A DNA stretch of 64,000 bases from Massilia sp. H6 (GTDB lineage: Bacteria; Pseudomonadota; Gammaproteobacteria; Burkholderiales; Burkholderiaceae_D): NCBI RefSeq assembly GCF_024802625.1, contig NZ_CP103371.1, positions 2,418,001 to 2,482,000 of the forward strand, written 5' to 3'. Numbering within the stretch: the stretch's first letter is position 1; each line of letters begins with the position of its first letter. The position numbers and the translations under genes are program-made. The notes beneath the pieces were generated by a model. That model did no database searches and had not been told where the DNA came from. It worked only from the letters and a program-made list of their open reading frames with translations. Positions 25,190-36,966 of the stretch are shown here, one piece after another.

Positions 25190-26113
25190 ATGCTATCGAT
25201 CAAGCAGCTCAACAAGACGTATGCCAATGGCGTCAAGGCCATCAACAATGTCAGTCTCGAGATTCCGAACGGCATGTTCGGCCTGCTCGGACCTAACGGC
25301 GCCGGCAAGTCGTCCTTGATGCGGACCATCGCGACGCTGCAGGATCCCGATAGCGGCAGTATCCATTTCCACGGCCTCGACGTCCTGAAAGAAAAGCAGG
25401 CGCTGCGCCGCCAGCTCGGCTACCTGCCCCAGGACTTCGGCGTGTACGCGAAAGTCAGCGCCGAGAAGCTGCTGAATCACTTCGCCGTGCTCAAGGGACT
25501 CACCAACAAGGGCGAGCGCAAGGAAGCGGTCGAGGCGTTGCTGCACCAGACCAACCTGTGGGAAGCGCGCAAACGCGGCCTGGGCACCTATTCGGGTGGC
25601 ATGCGCCAGCGCTTCGGCATCGCCCAGGCGCTGCTCGGCGCGCCGCGCCTGGTGATCGTCGACGAGCCGACCGCCGGACTCGATCCGGACGAACGGAACC
25701 GCTTTCTCAATCTGCTGGCCAAGATCGGCGAGCAGGTGGTGGTCATCCTGTCGACCCATATCGTCGAAGACGTCACCGACCTGTGCCCGCGCATGGCCAT
25801 GATCGCCAAGGGCACGGTGCTGCTGCAGGGCGAACCGCAGGCCGCGATCGACACGCTCAAGAACCACGTCTGGCGCCGCACGGTGAGCCAGGAAGCCCTC
25901 AGCGGCTACCAGGAGCGCTTCAATGTCCTGTCCACCCGCCTGGTGGCGGGCCGGCCCCAGATCAATGTGTTCTCCGAGTCGCAGCCAGACGAAGGCTTCA
26001 CCAGCGTGGAACCGGACCTCGAAGACGTTTACTTCTTGCAGATCCGCAACGCCGGCCGTACCACGGGCACCAAGCCTCCGGTGGCGGCCCCCGGCGCACC
26101 GGTCCTGGCGTAA
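25190..26113 (+). CDS. ABC transporter ATP-binding protein (paired with an ABC-M1 fusion permease)
   Basis: An ABC-2-type ATPase of 307 residues. Walker A is GPNGAGKSS (about residues 35-43), Q-loop LPQDFG, signature YSGGMRQRFGIAQ, Walker B LVIVDEPTAGLD and the H-loop STHIVEDV. A C-terminal extension of about 85 residues follows the nucleotide-binding domain. The gene for the permease-peptidase fusion starts 9 bases after its stop, with AAGGAG between, so the pair forms one complex. Related pairs of this ATPase with a permease/M1 fusion exist in Xanthomonas, Shewanella and Massilia relatives (family knowledge), with no established substrate that I know of. Confidence 0.92.
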   Translation: MLSIKQLNKTYANGVKAINNVSLEIPNGMFGLLGPNGAGKSSLMRTIATLQDPDSGSIHFHGLDVLKEKQALRRQLGYLPQDFGVYAKVSAEKLLNHFAVLKGLTNKGERKEAVEALLHQTNLWEARKRGLGTYSGGMRQRFGIAQALLGAPRLVIVDEPTAGLDPDERNRFLNLLAKIGEQVVVILSTHIVEDVTDLCPRMAMIAKGTVLLQGEPQAAIDTLKNHVWRRTVSQEALSGYQERFNVLSTRLVAGRPQINVFSESQPDEGFTSVEPDLEDVYFLQIRNAGRTTGTKPPVAAPGAPVLA

Positions 26114-26122
26114 GGAGCGGAC

Positions 26123-29100
26123 ATGCTTAGAGAATTCTTCAGCTTCGAGCTCGCTACCCAGCTGCGCCAGCCATTGCTGTGGGTGTGCGCACTGCTGCTC
26201 GGCGCGCTCGCCTTTGGCGCCACCACCACCGACGCGATCCAGGTCGGCGGCGCCATCGGCAACGTCAACCGCAATGCCCCTCTGGTCGTGGCCCAGCTGC
26301 TCGGTGCCTTCAGCCTGATGTCGATGTTGGTCGTCACCATCTTCATTGCCGGCACCGTACTGCGTGACAGCGAGGTCGGCATTTCCGACATGCTGTTCGC
26401 CACCCCGATGAAAAAGCACGACTACCTGATCGGGCGCTTTGCCGCCGGCCTGGTGGCCTGCCTGGTCATCTTCGCCATGATCGTGGCGGGCATGATGCTT
26501 GGGCCCCTGATGCCCTGGGTCGACGCCGAGCGCGTCGGCGCCTTCCCCGGCGCGGCCTACCTGTGGGCGCTGGGCGTGCTGGTGGTGCCCAACCTGTTCT
26601 TTATTGGCGCCTTGCTGATGCTGCTGGCCTCGACCACGCGCTCGATCATGCTGGTGTATGTCGGCGTGCTGGCTTTCATCGTCCTGTGGATCGTCGCTGG
26701 CAGCTTCACCTCGGACATCGACAACGAATGGATCGCGGTGCTGACCGATCCTTTCGGGATCCGGGCGCTGAGCCGCGCATCCCGCTACTTCTCGACCGCC
26801 GAAGCCAATGCGGGCCTGCCCGCCATCGGCGGCTACCTGCTGGCCAACCGCCTGCTCTGGGGCGCGGTTGCTCTTGCGCTGTTTGGCCTGACCCTGCTGC
26901 TGTTCAAGCCGCAGCGCGCCGGCACCGCCAAACGCCTGTTCCGCAAGGCCAAGGTGGCGGCGCCGAGCGCGCCAGCGTTGGCGCCGCGCGCGCTGCCGCG
27001 CATTGCGCCGCGCTTTACCGGCGCGACCGGTGCGATCCAGTGCTGGCACATCCTGGCCTTCGATGCCGCAGCGGTGTTCAGGAGCGTGCCTTTCCTGGTC
27101 ATGCTGCTGTTTGGCATGATGAACATGGTGGGTAGCTCGATCCGGATGGGCGACATGTTCGGCACCACCGTCTATCCAATGACCCACCTGATGGTGGAGC
27201 TGCTCAACGGCAGCTTCAACTTCATGCTGGTCATCATCGTGACCTTCTACTCGGGCGAGCTGATCTTCAAGGAGCGCCAGGCAAAAATCGCCGACGTCAG
27301 CGATGCCATGCCGATGCCGTCCTGGGCGCCGCTGGTGGCCAAGAGCCTGGCCCTGGCGGGCGTGGTGCTGGCCTTCATGCTGGCGGGCGTGCTGACCGCG
27401 ATCGCGATCCAGCTGATCAAGGGCGGTGCACCGGTCGAGCCGCTGGTCTACCTCAAGGGCGTGCTGCTAACCGGACTGCCGTTCATCATGCTGGGCCTGT
27501 TCGCGACCGTGCTGCAGGTGCTCACCAATTACAAGTTCATCGGCTACCTGCTGGTGATCCTGCTGATGGTGTCGCAGATCGTCGCTGGCGTGATGCACTT
27601 CGACCACAACCTCTACAACATCGGCGGCCTGCCGCGCACGCCGTACTCGGACATGAACGGCTATGGCCATTTCATCGCGGGCTGGTCGTGGTTCGCGCTG
27701 TACTGGACCTTGTTCACGGTGGCGGCGCTGATCGTGGCCCAGGCTTTCTGGGTGCGCGGCCTGTCGACCCAATGGCGCACCCGCGTGCGCGAGGCGGGCC
27801 GCCGCCTGAAGGGCCCGTCCGGCGTGGCGCTGGCAGCCTGCCTGGTGGCGTTCGCTGGCGTGGGGGGCTGGATCTTCCACAACACGGTGAACCTGGCGCA
27901 CTACGAACCCGGCAACGTGACAATGGACAAGCAGGCTAGGTACGAAAAGACCTACCGCAAATACAAGGACTTGCCGCACGCGAAAATCACCGACGTGCGC
28001 GCCGCGGTCGACATCTATCCGGACGAGCGCCGCGTGACGATCGAGGGCAGCTACGTACTGGAAAACAAGACCAGCCAGGCGCTCGACACCTTGCGCCTGC
28101 AGCTCAATCCCGACGTCGTCACGCGCTTGTCCGGGCTGCCGGCGCATCAGGTCGAGCTCGACGACAAGGACCTGGGCTTCAAGGTAATCAAGCTGGCGCA
28201 GGCCTTGCCCCCGGGCGCGCGCTTGCCGCTCGCATTCAGCGTCGAAGTGCGCCGTCCCGGCTTCTCGAACGCCGGCACCGCCGATACGATCAACCACAAC
28301 GGCAGCTTCTTCGACAACCGCGCGTTCTTCCCGCAGATCGGCTACCAGTCATTCTATGAACTGACCGACCGCAACGAGCGCCGCAAGCGCGGCCTGGGCG
28401 AACCGGAGCGCATGGCCAAACTCGAAGACCAGGCAGCCCGCGCCGATTCGATGTTCGGTCAGTCAGCGGACTGGATCAATTTCGAGACGGTTGTCTCGAC
28501 CAGCGGCGACCAGCGCGCGCTGGCGCCGGGCAGATTGCAGAAATCGTGGAAGGAGAACGGCCGCAACTACTACCACTACAAGATGGACCAGAAGATGATG
28601 CCGTTTTTTGCCTACCTGTCGGCCGACTGGCAAGTGAAGAAGGGGCAGTGGAAGGGCATTCCGATCGAGATCTACCACGACCCCAAGCACGCGTATAACG
28701 TGGACCGGATGATCGCCAGCACCCAGAAGTCGCTCGATTATTTCACGACCCATTTCACGCCTTACCAGCACAAGCAGGTGCGCATCCTGGAATTCCCGAA
28801 CTACAGCGCGTTTGCGCAGTCGTTCGCGGGCACGATACCGTTTTCGGAAGCGATCGGCTTCATTGCCGACCTGCGCGACAAGCAGGACATCGACTATGTG
28901 TTCTACGTGACGGCCCACGAGCTGGCGCACCAGTGGTGGGGCCACCAGGTGACCGCTGCCAACGTGCAGGGCGCGAGCATGCTGATCGAGTCGCTGTCGC
29001 AGTATTCGGCGCTGATGGTGATGGAAAAGGAATACGGCCGCCACCAGATGCGCCGCTTCCTGCGCTATGAACTGGATCGTTACCTGCGCTCGCGCGGCGG

Positions 29101-29704
29101 CGAGCTGATCGAGGAGCTGCCGCTGGTGCGCGTGGAGAACCAGGATTACATCCACTACCGCAAGGGCAGCCTGGTGTTCTACCGCCTGCGCGACGAAATC
29201 GGCGAGGAAGCGCTCAATCGCGCACTCAAGCGTTTCTTGATGGACAAGGGCTACCAGGAGTCGCCGTTTACCACATCGGCCGAGCTGCTCGACTATATCC
29301 GCGCCGAGGCACCACCCGCCAAGCATGCGCTGATCAACGACCTGTTCGAGAAGATCGTGTTTTACGATAATCGCGTGCTCGAAGCCAGTGCCAAGAAGCG
29401 GCCCGATGGCCAGTGGGACGTGACCATGAAGCTGCACCTGGCCAAGATGGAAGCCGACGGCAAGGGCAAGGAAACGCCGCGCGTCTACGACGAACCGGTG
29501 GAAATCGGTATCTTTGCGCGCGCCAAGGGCGCCAAGGAAGCGGACGAACGCGTGCTGCTGCTCGACAAGCGCGTGCTCAGCGGCGACAAGCCGGAGCTGA
29601 TCATTACCGTCAAGGAGCAGCCATTCGAGGTCGGCGTCGATCCCTACAACAAGATGATCGACCGCGTCTCGCGCGACAACCGCAAGGAAGTCAGCGTGGA
29701 ATAA
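26123..29704 (+). CDS. ABC-2 permease fused to an M1 family zinc metallopeptidase
   Basis: A 1193-residue fusion. Residues 1 to about 575 form two sets of membrane helices typical of ABC-2 permeases (helices near 15-35, 55-80, 105-130, 145-170, 180-195, then 320-560). Residues from about 590 make an aminopeptidase-N-like domain with the zinc motif HELAH at 932-936 followed by QWWGHQ. The next candidate zinc ligand is Glu956, one residue further than the HEXXH-X18-E spacing of classical M1 enzymes. Membrane topology suggests the peptidase sits on the periplasmic face. It follows its ATPase by 9 bases. The role is probably peptide export coupled to trimming, but the substrate is unknown. Confidence 0.9.
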   Translation: MLREFFSFELATQLRQPLLWVCALLLGALAFGATTTDAIQVGGAIGNVNRNAPLVVAQLLGAFSLMSMLVVTIFIAGTVLRDSEVGISDMLFATPMKKHDYLIGRFAAGLVACLVIFAMIVAGMMLGPLMPWVDAERVGAFPGAAYLWALGVLVVPNLFFIGALLMLLASTTRSIMLVYVGVLAFIVLWIVAGSFTSDIDNEWIAVLTDPFGIRALSRASRYFSTAEANAGLPAIGGYLLANRLLWGAVALALFGLTLLLFKPQRAGTAKRLFRKAKVAAPSAPALAPRALPRIAPRFTGATGAIQCWHILAFDAAAVFRSVPFLVMLLFGMMNMVGSSIRMGDMFGTTVYPMTHLMVELLNGSFNFMLVIIVTFYSGELIFKERQAKIADVSDAMPMPSWAPLVAKSLALAGVVLAFMLAGVLTAIAIQLIKGGAPVEPLVYLKGVLLTGLPFIMLGLFATVLQVLTNYKFIGYLLVILLMVSQIVAGVMHFDHNLYNIGGLPRTPYSDMNGYGHFIAGWSWFALYWTLFTVAALIVAQAFWVRGLSTQWRTRVREAGRRLKGPSGVALAACLVAFAGVGGWIFHNTVNLAHYEPGNVTMDKQARYEKTYRKYKDLPHAKITDVRAAVDIYPDERRVTIEGSYVLENKTSQALDTLRLQLNPDVVTRLSGLPAHQVELDDKDLGFKVIKLAQALPPGARLPLAFSVEVRRPGFSNAGTADTINHNGSFFDNRAFFPQIGYQSFYELTDRNERRKRGLGEPERMAKLEDQAARADSMFGQSADWINFETVVSTSGDQRALAPGRLQKSWKENGRNYYHYKMDQKMMPFFAYLSADWQVKKGQWKGIPIEIYHDPKHAYNVDRMIASTQKSLDYFTTHFTPYQHKQVRILEFPNYSAFAQSFAGTIPFSEAIGFIADLRDKQDIDYVFYVTAHELAHQWWGHQVTAANVQGASMLIESLSQYSALMVMEKEYGRHQMRRFLRYELDRYLRSRGGELIEELPLVRVENQDYIHYRKGSLVFYRLRDEIGEEALNRALKRFLMDKGYQESPFTTSAELLDYIRAEAPPAKHALINDLFEKIVFYDNRVLEASAKKRPDGQWDVTMKLHLAKMEADGKGKETPRVYDEPVEIGIFARAKGAKEADERVLLLDKRVLSGDKPELIITVKEQPFEVGVDPYNKMIDRVSRDNRKEVSVE

Positions 29705-29706
29705 GC

Positions 29707-29740
29707 AGGCCGCTGCAAGGCGCCGCACTTGCAGCGGCCT
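29707..29740 (+). terminator. 13-bp hairpin after the ABC/M1 gene, no U-tract
   Basis: AGGCCGCTGCAAG (29707-29719) pairs perfectly with CTTGCAGCGGCCT (29728-29740) around an 8-base loop, two bases after the stop codon. There is no T-run, so it may stabilise the mRNA end or aid termination rather than act as a classical intrinsic terminator. Confidence 0.6.
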
Positions 29741-29834
29741 CTTGCAGCAGCATGTGCCGTGCATAACTTGCACGCAGAGCTTGCTCATTCGATAACGCAC
29801 CTTTAGGCTGGAGGTATTTCCTAGAATAAAATCT

Positions 29835-32800
29835 ATGCGCTACCTCCCGCTTGCCCTTGCCATCCAGCTTGCCGTTCTTGCCGGCTCCCATACCGTCCTG
29901 GCCGCGCCTGGCCAGGCCCTCATCGACAAGGCTGGCCCGGTACAGGGCGCGAAGGCGGAATTGCAACGGTCCGCGCCTCTGCCCGCCTGGGCGCAGCCGC
30001 TGGCGGACATTCCCGAAACCGGACGCACCGACGCCGTCGTGTTGCGCCTGCATGAAACCCAGGCCTTGGCGGGCGATACGCCAGCTTACCTGGTCAATCG
30101 TGCGATCCAGGTGAATGACAGCAGCGCGCTCGCCGCGATCGGGCAACCGAGCCTGAATTACTTCCCCAGCTACCAGACATTGAGCCTGCACCGCGTCGTC
30201 ATCCTGCGCGGCGGCAAGGTACTGGATCGAACCGCCAGTGTCTCGGCGCGCGTGCTGCAACGCGAGACGGCTATCGAGCAGGGTGTCTATGGCGGCGCGA
30301 GCACGATCCAGCTTTTGCTGGAAGACGTGCGGGTAGGCGACACCTTGTGGATGACCTATAGCGTGACGGGCGCCAACCCTGTATTCGGAAAGAAATGGTT
30401 TGACGAATATAACTGGGACCAGCTGGCGCCGATCGAACTGCGCCGCGTGACCGTCTTGTCTCCCAGGCAGCGCAAGCTGGCATGGCGCCAGCTGGGCGAT
30501 TTTCGCACCGACAAAATCGCCGTGCGCAGCAGCGCGGTGGGCCCGTATGACCTGTTGGTATTCGAGGGCAAGGGCATCGAAGCGCTCGACGACGAAGCGT
30601 CGATCCCGAGCGACTACCTGGCTGCGAGGAGCTTGCAGTTTTCCGAATTTGCCGACTGGGCCTCGGTGGCCGAGTGGGCGGGCAGCTTATTTGCGCCCAT
30701 GGCTGGCAACCCTGCCGTCAAAGCACAGGCCGATCAGTTCCGCAAGCTGGCAACGCCACTGGCACGCGCCTCCGCGGCCCTGCGTTGGGTGCAGGACGAA
30801 ATCCGTTATTTCAGCGTCTCGATCGGCGAGAATTCACACCGGCCGCAAGCGCCCGGCACCGTGCTCAAACGCCGCTACGGGGACTGCAAGGATAAAAGCT
30901 ACCTATTGATGTCACTGCTGGGCGAGCTTGGCATCGCAGCCAAGCCAGTCTTGCTATCTACCGGTGCGCCGGGCCTGCCGGCCAGGGTCGGTCCGTCGCC
31001 AGGATGGTTCGACCATGTGATCGTCGAAATTCTCGTCGACGGCAAACGCTACTACGTCGATCCGACCCGTAGCGGCCAGCAGGTAGGGCTCGATGCGCTC
31101 TCCACTGCCTTCCCCGGCGCATCGGCCCTCGTGGTCGCCCCTGGCACAACCGCATTGACCGTCCTTCCGGAGTCTGGCCAGCGCGAGCCAAACTACGAAG
31201 TCAATGAGACCATCGCCATCGCCGGCTACGACGGCGATGCCACCCTGGAAACGCGTGTGCTGTTCCGCGCAGAGCTGGCGGAAATCTGGCGCCAGCGCCT
31301 GGGCGCGCTGTCTCCCCTTGAGCTGAAGAAAGTTGCCACTGGGGATTACCAAAAACGCTATCCTGGCATCTTTCCCGTCGATGCCCCGGTCGTGGTCGAC
31401 GACAAGCAGACCAACCGGGTGGAACTGCGGTCACGCTATCGCTTGCCCAAGGCGGTCAAGCTGGCCGATGGTGCCTTGTCGATCGAGTATCGGGTCGGGA
31501 TGCTCGACGGCGTCGTGGGCCTGCCCGACAAGCTGCAACGCAGCTATCCGCTGGATATGCCAGCGGCAAGATTCCACGGCCGTTACCGCCTGAACATCCA
31601 GTGGCCCGAGGATGTCCGCGCGAACGAAGCGCCGTGGTCGCGCAACGTTGACAACCGATTTTTCCACGCGCATGAAGCTTATGTGTTCCGCGGCAACCAG
31701 CTGCAGCATATGGTCGACTACCGCACCAGGGCGCACACGGTGCCGGCATCCGAAGTAGCCGAACTGCACGCAGCGGCCAAGCAAATTGACGACCTGGGCT
31801 ATGGCCGTTACACCTCGCGGCCGGAGCAGAGGATCGAGAAGCAGGCAGCTGGCTACAGCGCACGCGACGTCGACCTGGTGCGCATGACCGCCAAGGCAAA
31901 TGAACTTGCGCAGTCGATGGCCGGCCAGGACGACGCTGCCATGAAGCGCGGCCAGGCTTGCCTGCTGCTGCAACTGGCCAGTGCTGCGGACGGGATCGTC
32001 CTGCCGGCCAACAAGAAAGTCGTTACCCAGGCCTGGCGCGTTATCAAGGACGATGCCAGCGACCGGACGGCGCGGGCATGCCGCGCGCGCATGGCATTCG
32101 AGAGAGGCGACTTTGCCGCCAGCGCCCGCCTGTACCAAGAGCTGGGCGCCGCCCCGGCCGCAGGGCAAGCGGACGAATTGCGCAATCTGGCCTGGGCGCA
32201 GTTCTTCCAGGGCCAGAGCGAACTGGCACTGGCAACGATGCAACAGTACGAAGATGCGCAGGCCGGGCTCGCGGTACGCTCGGGCGCCGAGCTCGACCTG
32301 ATCGACAGGATCGCGCTCTTGCAGCGCAGCGGGCAGGGACTGCTGCCCGGGATGCGCGAGCGCGCCGCCCATGCGCCGGACGGCCCGTGGCCGCGCCCGC
32401 TGCTCGCCATGCAGGCAGGTCTGATCAGCCCGGAGGCGCTGCTGACCCAGGTTGACGCAATGCCCGATCACGCCCGCGCCTATGCCCTGACCGAAGCCCT
32501 GTTCTATTTGGGGCAGATGCGGTTGGCGTCCCGTGACACGGCCGGTGCGGTGGCCGTCTTGCGCAGGCTGGAAGAAAGCGGCATCCGCAGCTCCCATTTG
32601 TATCTGCAGGGCGTGGCGGAACTGCGCATGCTGGACAAGGTGACAGCGGATTCGCGGACCCTGGGTCAGGGCATCGCGGCCGACCCGGCCCAGGCCGCGC
32701 AGCGGTACAGCCTGGCCGCCGACAATGGCGATGCCCAGGCCAGCCTCGCGCTGTCCGAGCGCTATCGCACGGGTAAGGGCGTTTCCAGGGACGAGCAGAG

Positions 32801-35087
32801 GGCCACCGCGCTGCTGCGCCGCAGCGCTGAACTGGGTAACGCGACCGCCATGAGCCTGGTTGGCTGGCGTTATTTCGAGGGGGCCGGCTACCCGCAGGAC
32901 CATGCCTATGCAGCGCTGTGGTTCCAGCGTGCTGCGATGCGCGGCAACCTGTACGCCATGTACGGCCTCGGGCGGCTGCTGTCCGCTGGACAAGGGGTGC
33001 CGCGCGACCTCGAAGCGGCGGCGGTACTGTACCGGGCCGCGGCGGACAAGGGACAGGCCGAAGCCCAGCTCGACCTGGGCTATGCCTACGAAATGGGGCA
33101 GGGCGTCGCCAAGGACATTCGCGAAGCGGCCGCCTGGTACCGCAAGTCGGCCGAGCAGGGCAATGCGATTGCGCAGGCCAACCTGGGCCAGTTCCATGCG
33201 AATGGCACAGGTGTTCCCAAGGACGAGAACGCCGCGATTTCCTGGTACCGCAAAGCGGCCGATCAGGGATATGCACCGGCAATGATGAAGTACGGCTACC
33301 TTCTTGAGTACCCCACGACCATCAAGCCTGATCCGGCCCAGGCGCACGGGTGGTACCTGAAAGCGGCGGAGCTGGACGAGCCGATCGCGCAATACAATCT
33401 CGCCCAGCAGTTCAAGCAGGGCAGGGGCGTGGCAGCGGATTCGGGCCTGGCCGTCAAGTGGTTCACCCGGGCTGCGCAGAACGGCGACCTCGATGCGATG
33501 GTCCTGCTCGCCGATGCCTATCAGGACGGCGAAGGGGTTGCGCAGGACTTGGCCGCGGCCGTGCGCTGGTACACGGCTGCAGCCGACGGTGGCGATGCGG
33601 TTGGCGCACTGCGGCTGGGCATCATGGCTTTCACCGGGAACGGCCTGCCGCAGGATTACGCGCTCGCCGCCAGGCGTTTTGAACAGGCAATCTCGGCAGG
33701 CAATGATGGCGGAAACTACTGGCTTGGCCTGTTGTACGAACGCGGCCTGGGCCGGCCCAGGGACGTGAATCGGGCACGCGCCCTGTATGCGCTGGCCGAC
33801 TCGCTATGGGATGCCGACATCCGGCTCGCCGTGATGGACGCCCATGGCAATGGCGCGCCGCGCGACTCTGCCCGTTTCGAGAAATTCCTGGAGGACTGGG
33901 GCCGCAACGGCGAATTGTCGTTGCTAAAAAAGCTGGCGCAGGCATTCGACGCCGCCATCGATGGAGAACGCGCGCTGCGGGCTTATGAGCGCTTGCTCCA
34001 GGCAGCGGAAAAAGACGAACGGGCAGACGTTTTCAAGGCGGCGCTTGGTCAGCTGGCCGACAACTATGTCAAATACGAGAAGCACCTGAAGGCGGAGCCG
34101 CACTATCTGCGCCTGCTGTCCATGAAAGAAAAAGCCCTTGGCCCGCAGCATGCTGACGTCTCCGATACGCTCGAGGATCTCGCATCGGTGTATGCGGCCA
34201 CGGCACGTCTCGCACAGGCGGAAGCGGCGCAACGGCGTGCACTCGCGATACGCCTTGCGAGCTCCGGCTCCACCAACCCCATGACGCGGCGCGCCATGCT
34301 CAAGCTCGCTGGCCTGGTCGGCGCACGCGGCGACCTGGCGTCGGCGCGCCACTACCTGAACGAAGCGCAGTCCGGCGCCGAACGCGCCCTGGGCGCGGCC
34401 GATGCCGGGCTCCCCGACGAGTTGTCGGTGATCGCGCAGGAGTACTACGAGCTGGGGCAGTATGAGGATGCCGAAGCGCTCAACCGGCGCGCGTTGGCCA
34501 TGGTCGAGGCACGGGAAGCTCCCGGTATTGCGCTGGAATCCCCGCTCAATGGCTTGGCATGGACGCTCGCTGCGCGCGGCAAGCATGCCGAATCCGAGCG
34601 CTTGTTCCGGCGTGCCGTCGAGATCCGCGAGCAGTGCTATGGCAAGGAGCATCACCTGTACGCTGCCTCGCTTGGCGGCCTGGGGCTGCAGCTGTCGAAG
34701 CTGAACCGTCATGAGCAAGCCGAGCAGGCCCTGCGCCAGGCCCTGGCCTTGCGCGAGGTCTTCCTAGGTAGATTCGATAGCGAGGTTGCTTTGGCCCTGA
34801 ATCAATCTGGAATGGGTTGGGCAAGGCAGGGGAAACTGGCTGAGGCCGAGGCTGCGTTCGAGCAGGCCCTGGCTTTGCGCGAGCGCGTCTACACGCCCGT
34901 GCATGTCGAGATTGCCGATTCCCTGCACGAGCTTGGCGCGCTTTACCTTGGACAGCAACGCCTCGACAAGGCGCAGCCGCTCTTGCTGCGTGCCGTGGCA
35001 ATCCGCAGGCAGTTGATGCCCTTGCACCCGGCTACCCGTGCGAGCGAGGCATTGGTCGACGAATTGACGCAGAAAGCCCGGCGCTGA
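29835..35087 (+). CDS. Giant periplasmic DUF3857 / transglutaminase-like / Sel1-repeat / TPR protein
   Basis: A 1750-residue secreted protein with a signal peptide (cleavage near VLA-A, residue 23). A DUF3857-type beta domain (about 55-230) is followed by a transglutaminase-like core with a full triad: Cys351 (RRYGDCKDKSYL), His394 (WFDHVIVE), Asp409 (YYVDPT). A linker then leads to about ten Sel1 repeats (about 950-1340, e.g. AAAWYRKSAEQGNAIAQANLG) and kinesin-light-chain-like TPRs (about 1360-1745). A TAGAAT 7 bases before the ATG and GGAGG 20 bases away give no normal leader; it may be leaderless or start from an unseen promoter. It follows the ABC/M1 fusion by 130 bases. The likely role is peptide or isopeptide processing or crosslinking with a large protein-interaction scaffold. 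Confidence 0.88.
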   Translation: MRYLPLALAIQLAVLAGSHTVLAAPGQALIDKAGPVQGAKAELQRSAPLPAWAQPLADIPETGRTDAVVLRLHETQALAGDTPAYLVNRAIQVNDSSALAAIGQPSLNYFPSYQTLSLHRVVILRGGKVLDRTASVSARVLQRETAIEQGVYGGASTIQLLLEDVRVGDTLWMTYSVTGANPVFGKKWFDEYNWDQLAPIELRRVTVLSPRQRKLAWRQLGDFRTDKIAVRSSAVGPYDLLVFEGKGIEALDDEASIPSDYLAARSLQFSEFADWASVAEWAGSLFAPMAGNPAVKAQADQFRKLATPLARASAALRWVQDEIRYFSVSIGENSHRPQAPGTVLKRRYGDCKDKSYLLMSLLGELGIAAKPVLLSTGAPGLPARVGPSPGWFDHVIVEILVDGKRYYVDPTRSGQQVGLDALSTAFPGASALVVAPGTTALTVLPESGQREPNYEVNETIAIAGYDGDATLETRVLFRAELAEIWRQRLGALSPLELKKVATGDYQKRYPGIFPVDAPVVVDDKQTNRVELRSRYRLPKAVKLADGALSIEYRVGMLDGVVGLPDKLQRSYPLDMPAARFHGRYRLNIQWPEDVRANEAPWSRNVDNRFFHAHEAYVFRGNQLQHMVDYRTRAHTVPASEVAELHAAAKQIDDLGYGRYTSRPEQRIEKQAAGYSARDVDLVRMTAKANELAQSMAGQDDAAMKRGQACLLLQLASAADGIVLPANKKVVTQAWRVIKDDASDRTARACRARMAFERGDFAASARLYQELGAAPAAGQADELRNLAWAQFFQGQSELALATMQQYEDAQAGLAVRSGAELDLIDRIALLQRSGQGLLPGMRERAAHAPDGPWPRPLLAMQAGLISPEALLTQVDAMPDHARAYALTEALFYLGQMRLASRDTAGAVAVLRRLEESGIRSSHLYLQGVAELRMLDKVTADSRTLGQGIAADPAQAAQRYSLAADNGDAQASLALSERYRTGKGVSRDEQRATALLRRSAELGNATAMSLVGWRYFEGAGYPQDHAYAALWFQRAAMRGNLYAMYGLGRLLSAGQGVPRDLEAAAVLYRAAADKGQAEAQLDLGYAYEMGQGVAKDIREAAAWYRKSAEQGNAIAQANLGQFHANGTGVPKDENAAISWYRKAADQGYAPAMMKYGYLLEYPTTIKPDPAQAHGWYLKAAELDEPIAQYNLAQQFKQGRGVAADSGLAVKWFTRAAQNGDLDAMVLLADAYQDGEGVAQDLAAAVRWYTAAADGGDAVGALRLGIMAFTGNGLPQDYALAARRFEQAISAGNDGGNYWLGLLYERGLGRPRDVNRARALYALADSLWDADIRLAVMDAHGNGAPRDSARFEKFLEDWGRNGELSLLKKLAQAFDAAIDGERALRAYERLLQAAEKDERADVFKAALGQLADNYVKYEKHLKAEPHYLRLLSMKEKALGPQHADVSDTLEDLASVYAATARLAQAEAAQRRALAIRLASSGSTNPMTRRAMLKLAGLVGARGDLASARHYLNEAQSGAERALGAADAGLPDELSVIAQEYYELGQYEDAEALNRRALAMVEAREAPGIALESPLNGLAWTLAARGKHAESERLFRRAVEIREQCYGKEHHLYAASLGGLGLQLSKLNRHEQAEQALRQALALREVFLGRFDSEVALALNQSGMGWARQGKLAEAEAAFEQALALRERVYTPVHVEIADSLHELGALYLGQQRLDKAQPLLLRAVAIRRQLMPLHPATRASEALVDELTQKARR

Positions 35088-35103: not shown

Positions 35104-36738
35104 CTAGGCCGACATACCGTAGCTGCGCCGGGCTTGCTGGAACTGCTCGGTCAGCGCCGCCAGCCGCGGGTGGCTGGCATCGAGCGCGCGCAGGCGTTCG
35201 ATCTGCTCGAGCGCCACGTCGCCGAGGGCGTGGTCCCAGCCCAGTTCGTTAATCTGGCGCAGGATGGCGCCGGCCACCGCCACCATCACCTGCTGGTTGC
35301 CGGGAGCCATGTGGAGCGCTTCGATGAGCGTATGCACCGCGCCGCGCAGGTCGCCCATGTTGCGTTTTTCGTCGGCCACGCCCAGCAGGATCTGGGCCTG
35401 GGCGCGCAGCTGCTGGCCCATGCCGTCGGCCAGGTCGGGCCGGCCGGCGCGCACGAACACGCCGATCGCCTGGTCGAGCGTGACCGTACTGGACGAATTA
35501 TTCATCACCGTCATCATGACGGCCGAGGCCTGCTCGTCGAGCTGGTAGGCGAGGCAGGACTGGGCCAGCCCGATCTTCAGCTGCGACGACAGCGCGCTGC
35601 TCGCGCGCGTAGCGTTGACCGCCATCTGCAGTTCGGCAATGGCGGCGCCTGCATTACCGGTTTTTTCGTGCAGCAAGGCATTCGCGTAGGCCTTGCAGGC
35701 ATCGGCTTCGGCGCTGCCGCGCAGCGAGCGCTCGAGGTCGCGGATCGCGCCACCCGCGCCCTGGACGTCGCCGCGCGTGACCAGCGCCCGCACCAGGTTG
35801 ACATGGTCTTCCGGGTCGCGAAACTCCGAGTAGCGCGCCTTGCCAACCACCGACTTGAACGATTTCTCGGCGGCTTCGGCGTCGCCGTTCTCGAGCGCGA
35901 CTGCGCCGAGCTTGCGCAAGCGGCGCACCATGTGCGGGGAGATAGCCACCGCTTCTTCGAGAATCTTTTGCGCCGCATCGCCGGCGCCGAGCTGCTCGTG
36001 GCAGCGCGCCAGCAAGTCGTAGGCGCCCATCAAGCGTGGATGGCCCTGCACCAGGCGTTCGAGCGTCTCGCGCGCCTGGTCGAACTGCCCTTGCGCAACC
36101 ATCGTGCGCGCCAGCCCCAGGCCGGCCCATCCCAGCGGACGCTCGCCGAGCACGTCGGCATAGAGCGCGCCGGCTTCGCGGTGCTCGTTGACCGAGATAT
36201 GCAGCTCGGCCTTCAGGCGCAGGAAGTCGAGCGCGTAGCGCGGGTGGACCAGGGTCGCCGTGGCGCAGGCGCGGATCGCTTCGGACGGCTTGCCCTGCGC
36301 GGCCAGCTGCCAGACCGGAAGCAGGGCGCTGCGGCGCTCAAGTGCGCGCTTGATGCGGCCGCTGAGCATGTCGACGGTGAAGGGTTTGAGCACGTAGTCA
36401 GTCGGGCTCAGTTCAGCTGCGCTGACGACCTTGCCGTAGACGCCTTCAGAGGTGAGCATGATGAAAATGGTCGATGCCGTGATCAGGCGGTGGTGGCGCA
36501 GGTCTTCCAGCAATTGCTGTCCATCCTGGCCGTCGCCAGTGCTGCTCGAACCGGCCAGGTCGTACTCGCACAGGATCACGTCGTAGCTGCGCTTGGCCAG
36601 CTGTTTGATCGCGGTACTGGCATTGACCGCCGACTCTACCTTGGCGATACCGGCCTGGTTCAGCATGTTCTGCAAGCTGGCGCGCATGCCGGCATTCGGG
36701 TCGACCACCAGCACCGACAGGTTCGCATTTTCTTGCAT
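35104..36738 (-). CDS. Response regulator with C-terminal TPR scaffold, unusual phosphoacceptor
   Basis: Residues 7 to about 130 form a receiver (REC) domain (VLVVDPNAGMR at the acidic start, LKPFT with the conserved Lys near 116). The rest (about 140-544) is TPR-like helical repeats. The position expected for the phosphorylated Asp, after strand beta-3 VILC, is Glu58 (VILCEYDL), encoded at 36565-36567. The start at 36738 gives a domain-exact N-terminus; the open frame upstream is not protein-like. It has no DNA-binding output domain, so it probably acts through protein partners. It diverges from purL and converges on the giant Sel1/TPR protein gene. Confidence 0.85.
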   Translation of the reverse strand: MQENANLSVLVVDPNAGMRASLQNMLNQAGIAKVESAVNASTAIKQLAKRSYDVILCEYDLAGSSSTGDGQDGQQLLEDLRHHRLITASTIFIMLTSEGVYGKVVSAAELSPTDYVLKPFTVDMLSGRIKRALERRSALLPVWQLAAQGKPSEAIRACATATLVHPRYALDFLRLKAELHISVNEHREAGALYADVLGERPLGWAGLGLARTMVAQGQFDQARETLERLVQGHPRLMGAYDLLARCHEQLGAGDAAQKILEEAVAISPHMVRRLRKLGAVALENGDAEAAEKSFKSVVGKARYSEFRDPEDHVNLVRALVTRGDVQGAGGAIRDLERSLRGSAEADACKAYANALLHEKTGNAGAAIAELQMAVNATRASSALSSQLKIGLAQSCLAYQLDEQASAVMMTVMNNSSSTVTLDQAIGVFVRAGRPDLADGMGQQLRAQAQILLGVADEKRNMGDLRGAVHTLIEALHMAPGNQQVMVAVAGAILRQINELGWDHALGDVALEQIERLRALDASHPRLAALTEQFQQARRSYGMSA

Positions 36739-36907
36739 TGTCTCGTTTCCCGTATCGTCTCGGTCAGCGTGCGTAGCCCGCAAGGAGTAGCGCGCAGTTT
36801 TTATAATAATGTTCCCATTACAATACCGATAACTGCTCTCAGGATCAAGAAATGTCCGTACTACAAGTTCGGCATCCCCAGGAATGCAGCGCTGCATTGC
36901 AACACTG

Positions 36908-36913
36908 TATAAT
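36908..36913 (+). promoter_or_regulatory. Candidate -10 box for purL
   Basis: A perfect TATAAT lies 53 bases before the purL ATG. No good -35 sits at the right distance (TGCAGC at 36885-36890 is poor), so the promoter assignment is weak. The other part of 36739-36966 is AT-rich and should also hold the response-regulator promoter. Confidence 0.4.
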
Positions 36914-36966
36914 GACGCGCTATCTTCCACCCAAGCAGCGACGCTGCATCAACCGACTTCTCAGCC

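Follow-up and report, generated by a model that had tools for sequence, protein, structure and literature searches.

In Escherichia coli the cell-wall endopeptidase MepS reaches the protease Prc through an adaptor, NlpI, which docks MepS as a homodimer. In the NlpI-Prc complex the adaptor binds the protease through four acidic residues, and modelling has it dock the substrate as well (PMC5686067). NlpI holds cell-wall hydrolases as clients (PMC11211486, PMC7049810), its role towards peptidoglycan hydrolases being described as that of a general adaptor (PMC7049810), and LbcA-CtpA forms an analogous, non-orthologous adaptor-protease complex (PMC12569750). DUF3857 is an uncharacterised domain, which the literature searched mentions in one paper, only as the name of a neighbouring gene. 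No publication was found on DUF3857 together with transglutaminase or Sel1, broader searches listed nothing on a DUF3857-transglutaminase-Sel1-TPR architecture, and the literature linking NlpI and transglutaminase contained, judged by titles, nothing on such a fusion.

The gene described here lies in a stretch of 64,000 nucleotides (the window), part of the 4.5-Mb genome of Massilia sp. H6. Its product combines a DUF3857 and transglutaminase-type head with a domain that, by profile comparison and predicted fold, is distantly related to NlpI, and with two arrays of helical repeats. The NlpI-like domain, which belongs to the core of the family, is considered the most informative and most interesting part of the protein.

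Gene and domain features

In the open-frame reading of the window, the frame runs through all its codons with no interruption (Table 1), and together with the Pfam matches this bears out the original prediction of a single exported chain comprising DUF3857, a transglutaminase core, Sel1 repeats and TPRs. The scores exceeded the curated Pfam cut-offs for DUF3857 (85.6 bits, cut-off 24.6) and Transglut_core (33.4 bits, cut-off 23). The tandem Sel1 repeats reached 224.7 bits (cut-off 30.7), and TPR_12/TPR_10 were above cut-off in the C-terminal part, where the 42-residue spacing between most TPR units is that of the kinesin-light-chain type. Local profiles counted at least seven TPR units in addition to the 11 Sel1 units. 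A PDZ-serine protease domain of the Prc/CtpA type was not found in the chain (Pfam, E 0.001).

By eye, the N-terminus looks like a Sec signal peptide, and signal-like N-termini were also seen in the relatives among the 30 rows, window included, on which the tree and the conservation counts are based. The first Cys of the chain is residue 351, hence the signal peptide contains no lipobox; a lipobox-like pattern was present in 2 of the 30 rows. To judge from its sequence, the 1750-aa protein is probably exported. The triad had been predicted to be intact as Cys351-His394-Asp409, a numbering that proved exact, and it is conserved among the relatives (Table 1).

Table 1. Features of the gene and its predicted product (positions in the window).
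Feature	Residues	Positions	Strand	Basis
Whole gene, predicted exported DUF3857-transglutaminase-NlpI-like-Sel1-TPR protein	1750 aa	29835..35087	+	Open frame, Pfam, full-length relative
Putative signal peptide	1-24	29835..29906	+	By eye; N-termini of 30 rows viewed
DUF3857 beta domain	87-221	30093..30497	+	Pfam match; predicted fold match to 3KD4
Transglut_core domain	299-407	30729..31055	+	Pfam match; predicted fold match to 3KD4
Predicted catalytic Cys codon	351	30885..30887	+	Conserved in 30/30 rows
Predicted catalytic His codon	394	31014..31016	+	Conserved in 30/30 rows
Predicted catalytic Asp codon	409	31059..31061	+	Conserved in 29/30 rows; Glu in L043
NlpI-like helical domain	675-940	31857..32654	+	Predicted fold, profile matches and controls
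First Cys of the conserved pair in the NlpI-like domain	709	31959..31961	+	28/28 rows of alignment A3
Second Cys of the conserved pair in the NlpI-like domain	749	32079..32081	+	28/28 rows of alignment A3
Sel1 repeats (11)	944-1321	32664..33797	+	Local profile, Pfam, model, fold match
Kinesin-light-chain-type TPR array	1403-1725	34041..35009	+	Local profile, Pfam, sequence matches, model

The gene had also been described as lacking a normal leader, with a TAGAAT only 7 bases before the ATG, a claim that found no support. TAGAAT occurs six times in the window (5.83 copies expected), the sequence of the relative Telluria aromaticivorans differs at the aligned position, and a promoter scan of 29600-29900 returned no site; a leaderless start from TAGAAT is therefore unsupported. 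A GGAGG is located about 20 bases 5' of the ATG. By eye, the window gene taken as purL and the two which we take to be tig and ppiD are likewise without an obvious close ribosome site. A strong hairpin (-30.7 kcal/mol, z -3.5) lies between the upstream gene and the gene at 29835, and the scan called no terminator T-run there.

The NlpI-like domain

According to the original prediction, the triad is followed by more than 800 residues of Sel1 and TPR repeats. The repeats are present, but some 530 residues between the triad and the Sel1 array had been overlooked; these contain a beta region and the NlpI-like domain. In the core model (residues 27-940, 8 sequences, pLDDT 76.6, pTM 0.46), residues 675-940 matched seven NlpI entries with Z-scores of 18.9-19.5 over 241-247 residues (rmsd 3.5-3.7), whereas the next helical row after NlpI reached a Z-score of 10.5. 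In a Foldseek search with the same model, the NlpI chains had E-values of 4e-6 to 2e-5 and target TM-scores of 0.67-0.70, the first of them at rank 19; the rows ahead were M1 aminopeptidases and oligosaccharyltransferase chains, long chains with poor TM-scores.

Among the NCBIfam families, NlpI (NF008391) was the best in all six rows tested, with E-values from 2.7e-4 (window) to 1.2e-20, and the commonest among 28 members (19 matches; nine members without a match at 0.001). The scores of 20.5 bits in the window and 74.2 bits in the best of the six rows stay below the curated cut-off of 250. A profile of 28 sequences, searched against the PDB, matched NlpI end to end (E 1e-22), covering positions 38-285 of 290. 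Higher scores went to three designed TPR proteins, which matched over several repeats; for the remaining natural chains the matches were shorter and partial (best 60 of 122 PDB matches). Alignment to E. coli NlpI with hhalign gave 98.2%, E 3e-14 and 240 columns at 13% identity. Regarding the controls, the 28-row profile scored 83.7 bits to NlpI, compared with at most 6.8 bits to five other TPR/Sel1 stretches; a different family supplied two DUF3857-TPR proteins, one without an NlpI match at 0.001 and the other with a partial one (profile positions 90-161 of 297). The profile controls and these two proteins speak against a mere general-TPR effect as the source of the similarity. To judge from the profiles and the predicted fold, residues 675-940 are thus best described as a distant relative of NlpI, NlpI-like rather than NlpI.

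Regarding the 97 family genomes searched, none contained an NlpI match over the cut-off, which the E. coli control passed, apparently as the one among 14 controls to do so. Some NlpI-profile match at 0.001 was obtained in 92 of the 97 genomes; these matches were weak, of general TPR type and, among the matches listed, mostly partial. The matches listed reach an E-value of about 1.4e-5, with weaker ones, such as that of the window's own genome (1.8e-4), falling outside; among them, eight of the nine that cover at least 200 of the 297 profile positions are located in DUF3857 frames. The ninth lies in a 365-aa frame in G050, on a contig other than that of the DUF3857 frame of this genome, which is near a contig end. 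Prc-family proteases elsewhere in the window genome were represented by three matches over the cut-off.

Cys709, Cys749, Trp852 and Ala905 are present in 28 of 28 rows of alignment A3, which comprises 28 of the 30 rows, L045 and L072 being out; the absence of L045, the one row without the Cys pair, favours this Cys count, and over all rows the pair is found in 29 of 30. In the 30-row alignment the first Cys falls into two columns eight residues apart, which A3 unites. The sequences suggest a Cys709-Cys749 disulfide beside one catalytic thiol; such a conserved pair in addition to the catalytic residue would be in keeping with an oxidising compartment. The Prc-binding acidic positions D113, E117, D120 and E124 of NlpI correspond to A, R, Q and A in the window and are acidic in 5, 3, 2 and 2 of 28 rows, respectively, in an alignment of 13% identity that carries a risk of register shifts. 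With these acidic residues and the lipid anchor absent, the partners of NlpI cannot be assumed for the window protein.

Relatives, distribution and history

The fusion had been called unusual, which holds in the sense of rare but not of unique. In the family sample, where DUF3857 was detected in 54 of 190 genomes (70 matches), three matches showed the full order with Sel1 and TPR, and nine lay in Sel1-bearing frames of more than 1200 aa (G160, G069, G000, G166, G070, G045, G107, G177 and G094); two further matches belong to one frame with two DUF3857 domains. The length is unusual as well, as had been claimed against a usual 600-700 residues: in the genus (DUF3857 in 52 of 62 genomes), 48 of 58 matches were in frames of 586-758 aa and six in frames over 1200 aa, and in the phylum sample (37 of 398 genomes) the window's own was the single one of 40 matches over 1200 aa. 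Matches to residues 1-935 at E <=1e-40 were obtained in seven of 62 genus genomes (one in two pieces) and in 10 of 300 genomes of the order, the window's being included in both counts. Nine of 72,556 plasmid records had partial matches, all of them with less than 80% coverage of residues 1-935.

Two genomes have irregular frames. G067 (L109 1828-5478) has a single 1216-aa frame with two DUF3857 stretches and one transglutaminase stretch, and in G514 (L110 2384-4707) DUF3857 and transglutaminase lie in two successive, overlapping frames, which is either a broken copy or a sequencing error.

The 30 rows analysed comprise 16 core-only rows, 10 with core and Sel1 (6-17 units) and four with core, Sel1 and TPR (window, L038, L059 and L061), two of these four being more distant than T. 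aromaticivorans. Core-only rows measure 935-1026 aa from stop to stop, with the exception of L043, the frame of which extends upstream. The Pfam search covered 24 rows (window, 13 Sel1-bearing rows, with T. aromaticivorans as L055, and 10 core-only rows). L055, L075, L077, L080, L081 and L042 were left out as duplicate, broken or cut off; further rows outside are the weaker core matches L025-L035 (eleven) and L051-L054 (four) and one place in G107 (C34). The excluded weaker matches have frames of at most 1009 aa, so that by length none should carry a Sel1 array.

In the core tree (892 columns) the 14 Sel1-bearing rows together with L071 and L072 form one branch (support 100/100), and the grouping of the four Sel1+TPR rows is moderately supported (74/87; recovered in 76% of 200 bootstrap trees). 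The changes among the three architecture types number 3 on the tree, compared with an average of 12.0 in shuffles. The simplest history would be stepwise C-terminal growth, starting from a core of about 935 aa, with one gain of Sel1 (and its loss in L071/L072) and one gain of TPR; two separate TPR gains are a possible alternative. The fusion is a rare yet real branch of an existing family.

The copy in T. aromaticivorans (L038), the closest relative with the gene and from the same genus as the window, is colinear, 75% identical and of equal length, the alignment having one gap on one side and two on the other. Between these two sequences dN was lower than dS in every segment: 0.154 vs 0.656 for the whole protein, 0.066 vs 0.66 for the transglutaminase segment, 0.16 vs 0.59 for Sel1, 0.28 vs 0.66 for the linker (residues 1331-1440) and 0.18 vs 1.15 for the TPR segment. 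This indicates that the reading frame has been maintained by selection across all junctions; as far as the substitution rates tell, the gene is under purifying selection.

In the tail model (residues 930-1750, 2 sequences, pLDDT 76.2, pTM 0.43) helical repeats are predicted throughout. Its Sel1 part matched LceB (8SXQ, Z 32.4), c5321 (4BWR, Z 30.3) and LpnE (6DEH, Z 27.1), and its second part matched TPR domains such as those of LGN and kinesin light chain. At the DNA level the repeat copies have diverged, with two weak families only (71% and 77%), and a recent DNA-level repeat expansion is therefore not favoured. L056 (6967-11832) has 17 Sel1 repeats and no TPR tail in 1622 aa, an alternative route to a longer scaffold.

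Gene neighbourhood

The stretch 25190-29704 of the window holds an ABC ATPase gene, followed by a gene whose 1193-aa product weakly matches an ABC-2 permease and has an M1 peptidase domain at its C-terminus; a relative of this product was found in 21 of 21 genus genomes searched. On the other side, at 35104-36930 (-), a frame of 608 aa, in which TPRs come after a response regulator domain, is convergent with the 29835 gene. When the loci were compared side by side, no neighbour gene conserved across relatives was found. The ABC and M1-permease neighbours of the window copy are common only to T. aromaticivorans among the loci compared, so that the context offers no client; other neighbours are common within close pairs or groups of relatives (L039/L062; L040, L041 and L044; L071/L072). 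Nine other genus genomes have a close M1 copy, but the roughly 12 kb downstream of it contain neither the 29835 gene nor the response regulator nor purL.

In T. aromaticivorans (L038 13247-15436) the copy overlaps (ATGA) a DsbD-like thiol-disulfide gene, which is followed by a redoxin gene. Neither of the two is adjacent to the window copy. A search of the window genome, run without a positive control, returned no match to the DsbD-like gene, and redox support of the thiol by such a gene was for this reason dropped as general evidence.

Predicted function

The protein is best read as an exported, soluble thiol enzyme of the cell envelope, most likely a peptidase, with targeting parts of its own, including an NlpI-like adaptor; we assign this reading a probability of about 0.55. 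The thiol-peptidase reading derives from the conservation of the triad, the fold matches to 3KD4 and NlpI, the NlpI profile matches and the signal-like N-termini, and the peptidase chemistry and the location in the envelope are putative, as are the holding of clients and the link to the cell wall. The signal peptide would lead to export across the inner membrane, and DUF3857 and the transglutaminase fold would form the catalytic head with Cys351-His394-Asp409. The triad would hydrolyse peptide bonds in envelope clients. The NlpI-like domain may hold a client beside the Cys351 cleft rather than bring in a second protein as protease; the Sel1 and later the TPR arrays at the C-terminus may have provided a wider set of partners. 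The earlier description as an exported enzyme with a very large interaction scaffold is supported by the sequence, the enzyme activity being predicted.

A more specific proposal is tentative, with the odds clearly against it. In the window's family, the sampled genomes of which are without genuine NlpI, an NlpI-like adaptor may persist inside a transglutaminase-fold protease, as a one-chain counterpart of NlpI-Prc in which a thiol head replaces the serine protease; one branch would later have acquired the Sel1 and TPR arrays, and one exported chain would thus select, hold and cut envelope clients such as cell-wall hydrolases.

Regarding the head, the core model matched 3KD4 with a Z-score of 27.7 over 479 residues (rmsd 10.4), far above 4xz7 ('a TGase', Z 10.1), the cysteine protease LapG (Z 10.0) and human transglutaminases (about 9.3). 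Rows of M1 aminopeptidases (Z about 9.5) were taken as sharing a beta-sandwich only, and when residues 1-935 were compared with solved structures by phmmer, the two matches obtained were poor (E 0.19 and 0.76). The resemblance to transglutaminases would fit a transamidase, a true cross-linker of envelope or matrix proteins with repeats that align acceptor and donor, and long repeat scaffolds would suit the pairing of two partners. Such an enzyme is unlikely, however, given that the far closer 3KD4, the nearest solved relative, is titled putative protease and that LapG scores like the transglutaminases.

It is likewise improbable that the enzyme cuts peptidoglycan stem peptides directly, with the NlpI-like, Sel1 and TPR parts docking to cell-wall synthesis complexes. 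The general adaptor role of NlpI towards peptidoglycan hydrolases (PMC7049810) and the mention of Sel1 repeats among peptidoglycan-associating domains (PMC7159879) are consistent with it, whereas no other murein-binding Pfam domain was detected in the chain at E 0.001 and the relatives share no conserved gene neighbour.

A protein that is mainly scaffold, with its catalytic head folded but serving as an idle anchor, is very hard to credit. In its favour, the two repeat arrays account for almost half of the chain, and the number of Sel1 units ranges from 6 to 17 among relatives. Against it, C and H are kept in all 30 rows and D in 29, and of the segments measured none has a lower dN than the transglutaminase segment. 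That an assembly error fused two separate genes, an objection raised along with the original prediction, is practically ruled out by the independent full-length copies, one of them in a second species, and by the same full domain order in four genomes.

The joining of an NlpI-related domain to DUF3857 in relatives of several genera would provide a concrete clue to the role of the family, namely adaptor-controlled envelope proteolysis. Enzyme and targeting parts, usually separate proteins, appear here fused in one chain, and the growth of the tail from core to Sel1 to TPR would be a readable case of the stepwise building of a scaffolded enzyme.

Comparison with known systems

The DUF3857/Transglut_core protein BDI_1141 (3KD4) has the same beta domain and transglutaminase fold as predicted for the window protein; its chain comprises 505 residues and the match stops before the helical part, whereas the window protein adds the NlpI-like, Sel1 and TPR parts. 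The Sel1 proteins LceB, c5321 and LpnE have a fold like that predicted for the Sel1 part, which in the window protein is fused to a transglutaminase-type enzyme and in these entries, by titles and lengths, is not. The C-terminal TPRs match those of kinesin light chain and of the bacterial BKLC (5O01) in sequence but, unlike these, are part of a putatively exported enzyme chain.

With E. coli NlpI (1XNF, 5WQL, 8XUD), residues 675-940 have the predicted fold and the end-to-end profile similarity in common. In contrast to NlpI, the window domain is fused to an enzyme, is without the lipid anchor and the Prc-binding acidic residues, has its own conserved Cys pair and Trp, and scores far below the NlpI cut-off. 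NlpI-Prc (PMC5686067) and LbcA-CtpA (PMC12569750) are teams of an adaptor with an envelope protease, to which the window protein may be compared in its way of working; these teams consist of two proteins and employ a C-terminal-processing protease, whereas the window protein would unite both roles in one chain with a thiol head of transglutaminase fold.
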